From assembly GCA_020693225.1 (NCBI GenBank), contig JAIMJL010000026.1:1-33029 (forward strand): a stretch of 33,029 nucleotides of DNA. The letters run 5' to 3'. The notes under the pieces are model-generated. The model saw only the letters and a program-made list of their open reading frames with translations, made no database searches and was not told where the DNA came from. Of the stretch, positions 12,008-17,547 are shown in pieces. The position numbers were made by a program, and so were the translations under genes. The DNA is from Sandarakinorhabdus sp. (GTDB lineage: Bacteria; Pseudomonadota; Alphaproteobacteria; Sphingomonadales; Sphingomonadaceae). Position 1 is the stretch's first letter. Every line of letters starts with the position of its first letter.

Positions 12008-12592
12008 TCAATCCACCAATGAACAGCTCGCCTGCAGGGTGCGGATATTGATCCCGACCCGCTTCGCCGGCGGATCGGCCCAGCTGTAGGCCACCGCCCG
12101 CTCGCCGCCGTCAGGCGTCAACACATACAGCACAAGGCTCGGCTGGTTCGGCCCCGCTGGCCACACCACATTGCGCATCTTCAAGGTGAAACGCTGCGGT
12201 ACCGGCTCATCCGTCACAAGGTCCGCGCGCCCGCCCTGGTCGTGCAGGGCAATGTCGCGCTTCCCCCACCAGTCCTCGCTGCCATCCGCTTTGCGCGCCT
12301 GCTTCGGCACCGCTGCCCAGCAGGCAAAGCGTCGCGCACGCCGCATATCAAGCGAGACGCCGTCCGCCGAGAGAATCAGCCTGCCGGTTCCGATCTCGTC
12401 AGCCCTGAGCTTCCGCGCAGGCCCGGCCTCCCGGCCATGCGCGTCGACGGGGGTTGCCCGACCCTGATCGTCCACCACAAAACCGGTCCACGGCGGAGCC
12501 TGCGTCCTGGCCTCGCGGGCAAAGCTGACCTGCTCCTCGTTGGTCCAGACGCCGACAAGCGACGCCGCCACGGCGAGCGCCAGCAGGCTCAC
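12008..12592 (-). CDS. Uncharacterized exported protein translationally coupled to the DUF1838 gene
   Basis: GTG start at 12592 overlaps the upstream stop as GTGA; N-terminal hydrophobic signal-like segment VSLLALAVAASLVGVWTNEEQ; no family recognised. Confidence 0.7.
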   Translation of the reverse strand: MSLLALAVAASLVGVWTNEEQVSFAREARTQAPPWTGFVVDDQGRATPVDAHGREAGPARKLRADEIGTGRLILSADGVSLDMRRARRFACWAAVPKQARKADGSEDWWGKRDIALHDQGGRADLVTDEPVPQRFTLKMRNVVWPAGPNQPSLVLYVLTPDGGERAVAYSWADPPAKRVGINIRTLQASCSLVD

Positions 12593-13485
12593 TTCTTCGC
12601 AGCCCGCTCGGCCTCCACAAACTTGCGGAACTCGGTCCATGTCGTCGCATTCTTGCGCGTGTCATCGCCCGGTGGTGGCACACGATACTCCGGATAATTC
12701 TTCGCGATCTGCTCCTGCAAAACCTTTGGCAGCGCCTCGATCCCGTCCACCACGCCGCCGGTCGCGTTGAACACCAGCCCACCGGGCCGCGAGCCCATCT
12801 CCATGAAGGGCATCCAGCCCGAAAGCCGCACCCAGCTGACCGCCGCATTGGCCGCGGTGGTTTTCGGCGAGCGCAATTCCTTCTCGTCCACAATGAAGTT
12901 GAAGATTTCCATCGCGTGATACTGGTTGCCGGCATAGTCCTGGAAATCGCCACCCAGCGGATTGGTGTAGAACAGCGGCACCTCGATGTTCCAGAACACC
13001 CGCCCATTGTCCACGCGCGCCGGCAGCGTGAACGGCTTGCCGTCGCGCCCGGTCTGGAACATCGGCCCCTGGTTTACCGGATCATTCGCCACATGAAATA
13101 TTCGATTGGATTTGCCCGTCCAGGGGTTTTGCCAGCTATCCAGAACCGCCCCGGTCTTCGGATCGAGATAGAACATCAGCTCGCGGCTCACCATGCGAAC
13201 GCCACCACCCTTGGCGGGATCGTTCACCGTCACACAGGTGCGGACATTCATCCCCTCCACATCCCACAAATGCCGATCCGGCTCGCCCTGCACCCGGCTC
13301 CACACCCGGCCGGACCAGTGATAGACAACCGGCACATTGTCCTTCGTGGAGCACTGAATCTTGCGATACATCGCCTGCGCGTCCGCCGGCTTGTCGAACG
13401 CCAGCATTGCGCCCTGTGCGCTGGCACTTCCAGCCGCCATCGAAAGTGCCAGTCCGGCCAAAGCCATCCGCAAACATCCGCCCAT
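12589..13485 (-). CDS. DUF1838 family exported protein
   Basis: Signal peptide MGGCLRMALAGLALSMAAGSASAQG; DUF1838-like body (IQCSTKDNVPVVYHWSGRVWSRVQGEPDRHLWDVEGMNVRTC...). Confidence 0.78.
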   Translation of the reverse strand: MGGCLRMALAGLALSMAAGSASAQGAMLAFDKPADAQAMYRKIQCSTKDNVPVVYHWSGRVWSRVQGEPDRHLWDVEGMNVRTCVTVNDPAKGGGVRMVSRELMFYLDPKTGAVLDSWQNPWTGKSNRIFHVANDPVNQGPMFQTGRDGKPFTLPARVDNGRVFWNIEVPLFYTNPLGGDFQDYAGNQYHAMEIFNFIVDEKELRSPKTTAANAAVSWVRLSGWMPFMEMGSRPGGLVFNATGGVVDGIEALPKVLQEQIAKNYPEYRVPPPGDDTRKNATTWTEFRKFVEAERAAKK

Positions 13486-13525: not shown

Positions 13526-13554
13526 TTGACAAGAAAGTTGTCCGGACAAATAGC
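13526..13554 (+). promoter_or_regulatory. Putative promoter/operator: TTGACA -35 and overlapping 12-bp perfect palindrome TTGTCCGGACAA (13538-13549)
   Basis: TTGACA at 13526-13531; palindrome in the spacer/-10 region; lies between divergent DUF1838 and MaoC genes. Confidence 0.5.
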
Positions 13555-13586: not shown

Positions 13587-14096
13587 ATGCGCCCTGGTGT
13601 CATCGAAGTCGGCCCGCAACGCTACCGCGAAACCTTTGGCCGCTATTACGAGCAATTCGTGGTGGGGGATGTCTATGAACACCGCCCCGGCCGCACCATC
13701 AGCGAGGCTGACAACACCTGGTTCACGCTGTTGTCGATGAACACGCATCCGGCCCACTTCGATCATGAATATTGCAAGCAGACCGAGTTCGGGAAGCCCA
13801 TCGTCGCCTCGCCGCTCACCGTCGCCATCCTGGTCGGCATGAGCGTGTCCGATGTCAGCCAGAAGGCCGTCGCCAATCTCGGCTGGAAGGAAATCCGGAT
13901 GACACACCCGGTGTTCCACGGCGACACGCTTTATGCCGAATCGGAAGTCATCGAAAAGCGCGAAAGCGCAAAGCGCCCGGAACAGGGCATTGTGACAATC
14001 AAGACCGTGGGCAAAAATCAGAACGGCGTTGTAGTGTGCGACTTTCTGCGCACCATGCTGGTGTGGAAGTCGGGCTTCGGCCCTTCCGACAGCTGA
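13587..14096 (+). CDS. MaoC family (hot-dog) acyl-CoA hydratase/dehydratase
   Basis: YYEQFVVGDVYEHRPGRTISEADNTWFTLLSMNTHPAHFDHEYCKQTEFGKPIVASPL; PVFHGDTLYAESEV hydratase motifs. Confidence 0.87.
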   Translation: MRPGVIEVGPQRYRETFGRYYEQFVVGDVYEHRPGRTISEADNTWFTLLSMNTHPAHFDHEYCKQTEFGKPIVASPLTVAILVGMSVSDVSQKAVANLGWKEIRMTHPVFHGDTLYAESEVIEKRESAKRPEQGIVTIKTVGKNQNGVVVCDFLRTMLVWKSGFGPSDS

Positions 14097-14105
14097 GGAC
14101 CAAAG

Positions 14106-15311
14106 ATGACCGCTGCTTACTCCCAGGTCCGATCGATCGATCCCGATTTCGAGACCCAATTGCTGGATTCGATCGACAAATGGATCGAGCGCGATCTGAA
14201 GCCGGTGGTGATGCACCATGATCACGGCGACATCTGGCCGACCGAAACAGTGGCCCAGATGCAACAGCTCGGGCTGTTCGGCGCCACCATCGGCGAGGAG
14301 TATGGCGGCCTTGGCCTGCCGTCCTCCAGCTATGCCAAGATCGTCGCCCGTATCGCCAGCTTCTGGATGGCCCCCACCGGCATTTTCAACTCGCACCTGA
14401 TCTGCGCCCACGCCATCGAAAAGTTCGGCACGCCCGATCAGAAGGCGAAATGGCTGCCCAAGATGGCCAGCGGCGAACTGCGCGGCGGCCTGGCACTCAC
14501 CGAGCCGGATGCCGGAACCGACCTTCAGGGCATCCGCATGACGGCGAAAAAGACCGGAAATTCGGGCTACACCATCAACGGCACCAAAACCTGGATTTCC
14601 AACGGCATCAAGGGAGACGTGTTCGCCCTGCTGGTGAAAACCGATCCCGAGGCCAACCCCCGCTACAAGGGCATGTCGCTCTTCATCGCCGACAAACATG
14701 GTCTGGACCCTGAAGGGCCCGCTCGCGAAGGCTTCCGCGTCGGCAAAAAGATCGAGAAGCTAGGCTACAAGGCGATCGATTCCGCCGAGCTGATCTTCGG
14801 GGATTATGCCATTCCCGCCGACCAGCTGATCGGTGGCGTCGAAGGCGAAGGCTTCTTCCAGGCAACCGGCGGGCTGGAGCTGGGCCGCATCAATGTCGCC
14901 GCCCGCGGTGTCGGGCTGGCGGAGGGTGCGCTGCGCCTCGCCACCGAATACGCCCAGATTCGCCGCACCATGGGCAAACCCATCGCCGAGCATCAGGCCA
15001 TCCAGCTGAAACTCGGCGAAATGGTCACCCGCGCACGCGCCGCGCGCCTGCTCACTCTCGATGCAGCCGCCGCCTATGATTGCGGCGAGCGGGTGGATAT
15101 GGAGGCCGGCATGGCAAAATATTTCGCCTCCGAAGCCGCCGTGCGCAACAGCGAAGAGGCCATGCGCATCTTCGGCGGCTACAGCTACTCCAAGGAATAT
15201 GAGATCGAGCGCTATTACCGCGATTCGCTGCTCATGTGCATTGGCGAAGGCACCAACGAAATGCAGCGCATGATCATTGCCAAACAATGGATAAAGCGGA
15301 ATCCGGCGTGA
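14106..15311 (+). CDS. Acyl-CoA dehydrogenase
   Basis: ALTEPDAGTDLQGIRMTAKK, FSNGIKGDV-like FAD region, IFGGYSYSKEYEIERYYRDSLLMCIGEGTNEMQRMIIAKQ C-terminal signature. Confidence 0.94.
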   Translation: MTAAYSQVRSIDPDFETQLLDSIDKWIERDLKPVVMHHDHGDIWPTETVAQMQQLGLFGATIGEEYGGLGLPSSSYAKIVARIASFWMAPTGIFNSHLICAHAIEKFGTPDQKAKWLPKMASGELRGGLALTEPDAGTDLQGIRMTAKKTGNSGYTINGTKTWISNGIKGDVFALLVKTDPEANPRYKGMSLFIADKHGLDPEGPAREGFRVGKKIEKLGYKAIDSAELIFGDYAIPADQLIGGVEGEGFFQATGGLELGRINVAARGVGLAEGALRLATEYAQIRRTMGKPIAEHQAIQLKLGEMVTRARAARLLTLDAAAAYDCGERVDMEAGMAKYFASEAAVRNSEEAMRIFGGYSYSKEYEIERYYRDSLLMCIGEGTNEMQRMIIAKQWIKRNPA

Positions 15312-16498
15312 GCGCGCTTCCCCTTTCCGGCATCCGCATCCTCTCGCTCGAGCAATATGGCGCCGGCCCCTACGGCACCATGGCGCTTGCCCAGCTTGGT
15401 GCCGAAGTCATCAAGCTCGAACCCCCGAAGGGCGGCGACAGCAGCCGCGCCACCGGGCCCTATTTCCTGGGACAGGACGACAGCCTGTTCTACCAGAGCT
15501 TCAACCTCAACAAACGCTCGCTCACCCTCGATCTGAAGGCACCGGAAGGCCAGGATATCCTGCACCGGCTGGTGAAATCCGCGCACGCCGTCACCAACAA
15601 CGCCCGCGGTGATCAGCCGGAAAAGCTCGGCCTCACCTACGCGGCGCTCAGCCGCTCCAATCCGGCCATCGTCTGTGTTCACGCCAGCGCCTATGGGCGA
15701 GGCAATGCGCGCGAGAGCTGGCCGGGCTATGACTATCTGATGCAGGCCGAGGCCGGCTTTCTGTCGGTGACCGGCGAGCCGGACGCGCCGCCCACCCGCT
15801 TCGGCCTGTCCATGGTGGATTTCATGACCGGCCAGATGCTGGCAACCGCCACGCTCGCCGGCATCACCGAAGCGCGCGCCACCGGCAAGGGCCGCGATTT
15901 CGATGTCTCGCTGCTGGAAGCCGCGCTGCACCAGACCAGCTACCCAGCCGTCTGGTATCTGAACGAGGGCGCCATCACCGGCCGCAGCCCGCGCTCGGCG
16001 CACCCGGCCGTCACCCCCAGCCAGCTGTTCCGCACGGCAGACGGCTGGATGTTCATCATGGCGCAGCTGCCGAAGTTCTGGGCGCGACTGGTGGAATCCA
16101 TCGGCGCGCCGCAGCTCGCCACCGATCCCCGCTTTGCCACCACCCCCGCGCGCCTGGAAAACCGCGCCGCCCTCACCAGCACGCTGGATGCCATCTTCAT
16201 GACGCAGCCAACCGCCCACTGGGTCACGCTGTTGGGCGGCATCTGTCCGGTGGCCCCGGTCAACGATCTGGCGCAGGCCCTGGACAATCCGTTCATCCGT
16301 GCGCGCGGCATGGTGGAAACCATCCCGCACCCGGATGGCAAGCCGCTGCACACGCTGGCCAGCCCCACCCTGCTCGATGGCAAGCGACTGCCCAATCGCG
16401 CCGCGCCAAAGCTCGGTGCCGACACCGAAGCCTTGCTCGGCGAAATCGGCTTTTCGGCACAGGAAGCGGCAGACCTGAAGGCACGGGCCATCGTCTGA
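15308..16498 (+). CDS. Class III (CaiB/BaiF) CoA-transferase 1
   Basis: GTG start overlapping ACAD stop (GTGA); LPLSGIRILSLEQYGAGPYGTMALAQLGAEVIKLEPPKGGDSSR; conserved Asp in FDVSLLEAALHQ. Confidence 0.92.
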   Translation: MSALPLSGIRILSLEQYGAGPYGTMALAQLGAEVIKLEPPKGGDSSRATGPYFLGQDDSLFYQSFNLNKRSLTLDLKAPEGQDILHRLVKSAHAVTNNARGDQPEKLGLTYAALSRSNPAIVCVHASAYGRGNARESWPGYDYLMQAEAGFLSVTGEPDAPPTRFGLSMVDFMTGQMLATATLAGITEARATGKGRDFDVSLLEAALHQTSYPAVWYLNEGAITGRSPRSAHPAVTPSQLFRTADGWMFIMAQLPKFWARLVESIGAPQLATDPRFATTPARLENRAALTSTLDAIFMTQPTAHWVTLLGGICPVAPVNDLAQALDNPFIRARGMVETIPHPDGKPLHTLASPTLLDGKRLPNRAAPKLGADTEALLGEIGFSAQEAADLKARAIV

Positions 16499-17547
16499 TG
16501 GGCAAATTGTCCGGCCTGAAAGTCGTCGATCTCTCGCTGTTCCTGCCGGGCCCGATGCTCACGCTGATGCTGGCGGATCAGGGTGCCGAAGTGCGCAAGA
16601 TCGAGCCACCCACCGGCGATCCGGCGCGCCAGATGGAGCCGTTCGAGGCCGGGCAATCCTTCTGGTTCCGCAACCTCAATCGCGGCAAGCTCTGCGAATC
16701 CCTCGATCTCAAAACCCCCGAAGGCGCGGCGAAGCTGTGGCAGCATATCGAAGCGGCCGATGTTCTGGTCGAGGGCTTTCGCCCCGGAGTCATGGCCCGT
16801 CTGGGCTTCGCCTATCCGCAGGTCGCCGCCCGCAACCCCGGCATCATCTATTGTTCGATCAGCGCCTTCGGCCAGACCGGAAGCCACGCGCACCACCCGG
16901 CGCATGATCTGGGCGCGCAGGCGCTTGGCGGCTTTTTGTCGGTCAATGATGGCGCGGATGGCACCCCCGTGGTCCCCGGCGTTCCCGCCGCCGACATGGC
17001 CGCCGCGCTGACCGGCTGTTCGGCGGTTCTGATGGCACTCTACGGGCGCAGCCGCACCGGGGAAGGCGCCTATATCGATCTCGCCATGTTCGACAGTCTG
17101 CTGCCCTGGTGTGCCCACATCGCCGGCGATGCCGCGATCGCCAACATCCCCATTGCATCGGCAACCCAGCGATCGCTCGGCGGAGCCGCCTTCTATCAGG
17201 TGTATCGCACATCCGATGCGCGCCACATCGCCCTGTGCGGGCGCGAACTGAAGTTCGCGGAAAATCTGCTCACCGCACTCGGTCGGCCGGATCTCGTTGC
17301 TTTGGCGGCTGCGCCCGCCGGCCCGGCACAGGATCCGCTGAAGGCGTTCCTGGCAGAAACCTTCGCGCAGCGAACCCGCGATGAATGGACGCTCTGGTTT
17401 GCAGACAAGGATGTGGCGTTTGCCCCGGTGCTGGATTTCGCCGAAGCCCTGCGGTCTCCCCTCGTCCGCGAACGCGGCCTTCTGATCGAGCAGGATGGCG
17501 CGCACACCCTCGCGTCAGCGATCCGCTTCAGCCCCGTCGCGTCCTGA
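16498..17547 (+). CDS. Class III (CaiB/BaiF) CoA-transferase 2
   Basis: ATG overlaps preceding stop (TGATG); LSGLKVVDLSLFLPGPMLTLMLADQGAEVRKIEPPTGD; YIDLAMFDSLL. Confidence 0.92.
   Translation: MGKLSGLKVVDLSLFLPGPMLTLMLADQGAEVRKIEPPTGDPARQMEPFEAGQSFWFRNLNRGKLCESLDLKTPEGAAKLWQHIEAADVLVEGFRPGVMARLGFAYPQVAARNPGIIYCSISAFGQTGSHAHHPAHDLGAQALGGFLSVNDGADGTPVVPGVPAADMAAALTGCSAVLMALYGRSRTGEGAYIDLAMFDSLLPWCAHIAGDAAIANIPIASATQRSLGGAAFYQVYRTSDARHIALCGRELKFAENLLTALGRPDLVALAAAPAGPAQDPLKAFLAETFAQRTRDEWTLWFADKDVAFAPVLDFAEALRSPLVRERGLLIEQDGAHTLASAIRFSPVAS

Follow-up and report, generated by a model that had tools for sequence, protein, structure and literature searches.

A sphingomonad acyl-CoA operon with an AMACR-like protein and a putative GntR-type operator regulon as a probable branched-dicarboxylate variant of the itaconate/methylsuccinate gene set

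What does a four-gene acyl-CoA operon do if it encodes two members of the class III CoA-transferase family? The question is raised by a stretch of Sandarakinorhabdus sp. DNA (contig JAIMJL010000026.1, 33,029 nucleotides; the window), in which a MaoC hydratase, an acyl-CoA dehydrogenase and two CaiB/BaiF-like proteins, CoAT1 and CoAT2, are encoded one after another. Our reading, with a probability of about 0.6, is that this operon is the CoA-ester core of a substituted-succinate (branched-dicarboxylate) beta-oxidation, which a GntR/UTRA regulator switches together with unlinked loci. We regard it as a variant of the known itaconate/methylsuccinate-type gene set, to which a protein resembling alpha-methylacyl-CoA racemase (AMACR) and a GntR-type operator regulon are the new additions. 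The locus is laid out as follows:

12589-13485, minus strand: DUF1838 protein, divergent from maoC (PF08894, 237 bits; signal-peptide-like N-terminus)
13538-13549, no strand: palindrome TTGTCCGGACAA, the proposed operator, in the DUF1838-maoC intergenic stretch; sole exact match in the window
13587-14096, plus strand: MaoC-fold (R)-specific enoyl-CoA hydratase, RipB/Ich-like (PF01575, PF19315; 169 aa from ATG)
14106-15311, plus strand: acyl-CoA dehydrogenase (PF02771/02770/00441; 401 aa)
15308-16498, plus strand: CoAT1, class III CoA-transferase (CaiB/BaiF; PF02515, 383 bits; GTG start; 396 aa)
16498-17547, plus strand: CoAT2, AMACR-like (PF02515; 349 aa; His136, Asp166, Glu250)

The open reading frame (ORF) listing and the sequence bear out the initial annotation on the four co-directional genes and on both overlaps: the GTG start of CoAT1 shares four bases with the dehydrogenase stop (GTGA, 15308-15311), and the start of CoAT2 shares one base with the stop of CoAT1 (TGATG, 16496-16500). 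The operon is flanked by the divergent DUF1838 gene on one side and by a convergent PPK2 gene on the other. The ratio of nonsynonymous to synonymous polymorphism (pN/pS), calculated for the window versus four near relatives, was 0.14-0.41 across all four genes, indicating purifying selection, and the gene order is kept in many relatives, so the arrangement is not due to chance.

The operon was originally described as holding two class III CoA-transferases that shuttle CoA between two carboxylates. To judge this, we aligned the PF02515 proteins of the fetched loci with PDB references and paralogs from the same genome. The active site of MCR, the AMACR of M. tuberculosis, comprises His126, Asp156 and Glu241, for which the mutants H126A, D156A and E241A are described (PMC10967716). 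At the corresponding columns, His/Asp/Glu was present in 46/46 CoAT2 orthologs, with H136, D166 and E250 invariant, and also in all AMACR-like proteins of the set; just one of the remaining proteins had the full triad. All 53 CoAT1 orthologs carried Tyr, Asp and another residue at these columns, the nucleophilic Asp being kept and Tyr replacing the racemase His. In the IQ-TREE phylogeny, the CoAT2 clade (100/99) was sister to the AMACR clade containing MCR (98/77), and CoAT1 was placed with transferases; in a 27-row set that included one further His/Asp/Glu protein the support was 100/97. When compared with PDB sequences, CoAT1 gave 242 bits to 10uh and only about 67 bits to AMACR. As judged from its PF02515 fold family and nucleophilic Asp, CoAT1 is a class III CoA-transferase. 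A Pfam CoA_transf_3 match does not make a transferase of CoAT2, because the family also holds racemases; triad and tree position suggest that CoAT2 is an AMACR-type racemase-like protein and not a second CoA-transferase. Thus, the hydratase, the dehydrogenase and the first transferase stand as initially annotated, whereas the second transferase does not, nor does the CoA shuttling that depended on it.

CoAT2 shares with MCR (PDB 1x74) the three catalytic residues and the sister position in the tree, but it forms a distinct clade, with 31% identity over the structural alignment, that is fixed in a dicarboxylate operon. The AMACR encoded elsewhere in the same genome (contig C5, 384 bits to MCR) is a paralog separate from CoAT2. 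On plasmid pTM2 of Tistrella mobilis, in a cluster with an MmgE/PrpD gene, the CoAT2 ortholog (L110:7998-9093) is split into two overlapping frames, by a frameshift or a sequencing error.

As for the hydratase, the initial suggestion of an itaconyl-CoA-hydratase-like protein agreed with our searches: the top NCBIfam model was RipB/Ich (itaconyl-CoA hydratase; 232 bits, E 4e-69), though the score lies under the curated cut-off of 340. No curated equivalog model matched the acyl-CoA dehydrogenase above its cut-off; the enzyme probably acts on substituted succinyl-CoA. It is the most conserved member of the operon, with about 60-88% identity across proteobacterial clusters, and was found in 43/401 genomes of the order (E<=1e-125). 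It directly follows MmgE/PrpD in the five-gene clusters of Azospirillum and Rhodococcus.

Mapping of 15-20 kb around the dehydrogenase loci of the order revealed a common layout, in which a DUF1838 gene diverges from a citE(RipC-like)-maoC-dehydrogenase-CoAT1-CoAT2 row, a GntR/UTRA gene converges on this row, and two MmgE/PrpD genes diverge from the GntR gene. The neighbourhood search for citE-like lyases, also proposed at the outset, was therefore positive: a RipC-like citE is the first operon gene in most sphingomonad relatives, lying directly 5' of maoC in about 30 Sphingomonadaceae clusters, and it adjoins maoC in Tistrella and others. Since it sits in the relatives' operon, the lyase belongs to a fuller form of the operon. 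Where scored, the sphingomonad citE products gave 231-233 bits with the RipC model (cut-off 375). Parvularcula, Variovorax, Aminobacter and Tistrella have related gene sets; Rhodococcus encodes MaoC, CoA-transferase, MmgE/PrpD, dehydrogenase and CitE in a single row, and so does Azospirillum, where the lyase gene is oriented divergently. Three candidate counterparts were rejected, the MmgE loci of P. phymatum and Variovorax PBL-E5, where the rest of the cluster is lacking, and L243, which has a RipB above the cut-off and where the five-gene cluster was not seen. In many genomes a 370-469 aa protein, for which a weak AMP-binding C-terminal match was the only one, adjoins the MmgE pair (L238:3499-4908, on contig C14 of the window genome; L181:13859-14971).

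The window itself contains no citE-like lyase, as had been noted, and hence no Ccl/RipC in its cluster. In the window genome (G000 in our locus labels, 2.63 Mb) the only CitE match is a truncated divergent fragment at a contig end; the only CitE of G003 is of a divergent type, with about 39% to that of the cluster, and similar divergent CitEs are found in genus members without the cluster. The dehydrogenase tree places the window in a clade of nine members (100/99), of which 0/9 have a linked citE, consistent with a single loss of the linked lyase in this lineage; with an assembly completeness of 98%, however, the gene may also have been missed. Genes for MmgE/PrpD proteins, the methylsuccinate-isomerase family, either adjoin the cluster, as in relatives, or follow a copy of the operator. 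The window genome retains the GntR-MmgE-MmgE block unlinked, on contig C14, with a near-identical operator; the subfamilies of this pair differ from the Azospirillum type, and the active-site residues match partly.

In C. necator and P. aeruginosa, gene sets with ich-mcd-mmgE-ict-ccl content were shown to break down itaconate and methylsuccinate (Gonner et al., PMC12290011), and the genetics of the itaconate/methylsuccinate cluster has been described (PMC9875883). The five activities in the Rhodococcus and Azospirillum rows match this content. The window shares with the pseudomonadal set an Ich-like MaoC, an acyl-CoA dehydrogenase and a CoA-transferase, and the window's relatives share in addition a RipC/Ccl-like lyase and MmgE/PrpD. 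In contrast to that set, the present system has the AMACR-like protein, a second MmgE/PrpD, the DUF1838 partner and a GntR/operator regulon that takes in amide hydrolases; no linked lyase is present in the window's lineage, and the curated family cut-offs are not reached. Because the relatives' cluster resembles these characterised sets, branched-dicarboxyl-CoA chemistry is well supported; a C5 substrate is less so. In Mycobacterium, Rv2498c-Rv2500c (citE, maoC, fadE19) correspond as far as gene order goes to the citE-maoC-acyl-CoA dehydrogenase order of the window's relatives, but in the present clusters CaiB-type enzymes follow.

From these gene identities we infer the following reactions, in this order. 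CoAT1 would charge the acid with CoA, the donor probably being succinyl-CoA. CoAT2, acting as an AMACR-type enzyme, would epimerise the carbon adjoining the thioester, the dehydrogenase would then yield an unsaturated ester, and MaoC would hydrate it to a citramalyl-CoA-like 3-hydroxyacyl-CoA. In most relatives this product would be cleaved by the RipC-like CitE lyase of the same operon; in the window's lineage another lyase may take its place, either a divergent CitE homolog or an enzyme resembling 3-hydroxy-3-methylglutaryl-CoA (HMG-CoA) lyase behind the same operator. Through TTGTCCGGACAA, the GntR/UTRA regulator would switch the operon along with the MmgE/PrpD pair and the unlinked amide hydrolase, allantoinase-like and TonB receptor loci.

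The proposed operator is a perfect palindrome in the intergenic stretch upstream of maoC and, with up to two mismatches allowed, has no second match in the window. Since a match of that kind is expected 0.8 times in the window by chance, it is conservation and the counts over whole genomes that give the site its weight. The palindrome lies at the same place in nearly all cluster-bearing relatives; between GntR and MmgE there are copies with one mismatch. The window genome has 8 sites of the form WTGTCCGGACAW, against 0.32-0.36 expected and 0 for the reversed-pattern control; cluster-bearing genomes have 5-9, and two genus members without the cluster 1 each. Regulon members were read from stretches of genomes, with genes assigned to sites by a distance rule. 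The gene-assigned sites were mostly within about 125 bp of the starts of the same genes across species (G000, G003, G018, G010, G282), and several further sites had no assigned gene nearby. The operator-linked groups were:

TonB receptor, then major facilitator superfamily and nitrilase genes
isochorismatase-like/unknown gene pair
GntR/MmgE pair, in a gene row that includes an amidase
HMG-CoA-lyase-like/CoA-transferase genes
allantoinase-like gene
DUF1838/maoC

In G282 and G010, a region of about 45 kb holds most of the sites, among them one that heads a row containing LeuCD. As the palindrome is common to several unlinked gene groups, the operon probably belongs to a wider degradation system not described before. 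The GntR gene is constantly beside the site, which suggests that its product binds the operator. Literature searches on the operator, and on a link to tetrapyrrole or maleimide breakdown, gave nothing useful. Two sites outside the distance rule, C40:970 in G000 and C28:143988 in G003, are near acyl-CoA dehydrogenase genes, and the former also adjoins an allantoinase (PuuE)-like gene. In G000, G003 and G018, the genes of a family of about 310-aa proteins begin at the operator or overlap it with their start (L287:2765-3718, L297:10768-11694); Pfam and NCBIfam gave no match for the one in G000.

Across the operator from maoC, the DUF1838 gene is a constant divergent partner, at the same position in most relatives having the operon. 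A fold search with its model (predicted local distance difference test, pLDDT, 88) gave no PDB match at E<=0.001, and a literature search on DUF1838 yielded nothing useful. A 210-aa ORF without a Pfam match (12008-12640) overlaps the end of the DUF1838 gene on the same strand. An Rfam scan near the locus found tRNA-Asp only.

Several observations weigh against our reading. The MaoC score is short of RipB/Ich membership, and the linked lyases score 148-245 bits, under the curated Ccl cut-off of 375, so the substrate may differ from that of the curated families. A phylum-wide search for strongly similar dehydrogenases returned no identifiable Pseudomonas or Cupriavidus reference by which orthology to PA0879/PA0882 could be judged. 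In the phmmer ranking of PDB entries, transferases (175 bits) come above AMACR (139 bits) for CoAT2; Foldseek matches its model to transferases and AMACR alike (TM score about 0.55-0.61) and does not discriminate, and the joint CoAT2-AMACR node has the 98/77 support given above. CoAT2 also misfits plain methylsuccinate, because an AMACR acts on the carbon that adjoins the thioester, and in the C4-CoA ester this carbon is not chiral: the known route uses methylsuccinyl-C4-CoA, in which it is CH2 (PMC12290011). The presence of CoAT2 would rather suggest either an ester at C1 or a 2,3-disubstituted acid.

The last point leads to a larger or nitrogen-containing substrate, for instance a substituted cyclic imide giving a 2,3-disubstituted maleate or succinate and not a free C5 acid. 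It is plausible because amide and cyclic-amide hydrolases lie behind the same operator. We hold it tentatively, at less than an even chance; as a narrower claim within the branched-dicarboxylate reading, its likelihood overlaps with that of the latter. In its favour are the operator sites at allantoinase-like, isochorismatase-like, MmgE-pair/amidase, TonB/nitrilase and HMG-CoA-lyase-like genes, the LeuCD genes, homologous to branched-maleate hydratases, in the operator-headed row of G282 and G010, and the chiral centre next to the thioester that a disubstituted succinate would offer to an AMACR. However, the allantoinase-like and amidase families are broad, and some operator sites, such as those lacking a nearby assigned gene, may be fortuitous.

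The C5-dicarboxylate route (itaconate, mesaconate or methylsuccinate) of the initial annotation stands as regards the branched-dicarboxylate class, which the relatives' RipC-like citE and MmgE/PrpD support; the C5 substrates themselves are not settled, since the Ich/Ccl cut-offs were missed, the linked lyase was lost and the operator ties the operon to (cyclic-)amide hydrolases, which itaconate degradation does not need. We consider it unlikely that the operon serves a plain C5 route with CoAT1 and CoAT2 as true transferases of different substrates. The closeness of MaoC to RipB/Ich, the RipC-like lyase in the relatives' operon, the shared Asp of CoAT2 and its best PDB scores would all fit, but the racemase His and Glu in every CoAT2 ortholog, matched by a full triad in a single other non-AMACR-like protein, the grouping with AMACR in the tree and the missed cut-offs argue otherwise.

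The bbsEFGH genes for benzylsuccinate CoA-transferase, dehydrogenase and hydratase likewise combine two PF02515 proteins with an acyl-CoA dehydrogenase and a hydratase, their substrate being a substituted succinate; the present locus shares this content, but its PF02515 proteins are separable, CoAT2 is racemase-like and the hydratase is MaoC-type. That CoAT1 and CoAT2 are subunits of one heteromeric, BbsEF-like CoA-transferase acting before the dehydrogenase and hydratase is less likely still: although the tandem, closely spaced genes are kept together in many species and BbsEF, a known two-subunit class III enzyme, is among the sequence and fold matches, CoAT2 groups with AMACR and not with CoAT1, CoAT1 has no neighbouring CoAT2 in Azospirillum, Caballeronia, G687 and G409, and the fetched stretch of G048 has CoAT2 after the dehydrogenase but lacks a CoAT1 (in both cases the rest of the genome was not searched for a partner).

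Within the branched-dicarboxylate reading, a fuller scenario is possible but doubtful. The sphingomonad GntR regulon marked by the palindrome may take up and open a compound that contains nitrogen, for example a substituted cyclic imide, free a 2,3-disubstituted dicarboxylate and degrade it by an AMACR-assisted variant of the itaconate/methylsuccinate route. The window would hold the CoA-ester core, and its lineage would have broken up an ancestral supercluster and kept the operator on the pieces.

The itaconate/methylsuccinate gene set thus has a widespread relative in sphingomonads, with a putative racemase and a regulon of its own, for which reason the labels 'CoA-transferase' and 'itaconate degradation' would be misleading annotations. 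It is also a natural example of a cluster whose genes were scattered over the genome while the regulatory site is still shared. The operator is a direct and cheap handle on the substrate, as the loci behind it can be tested together.

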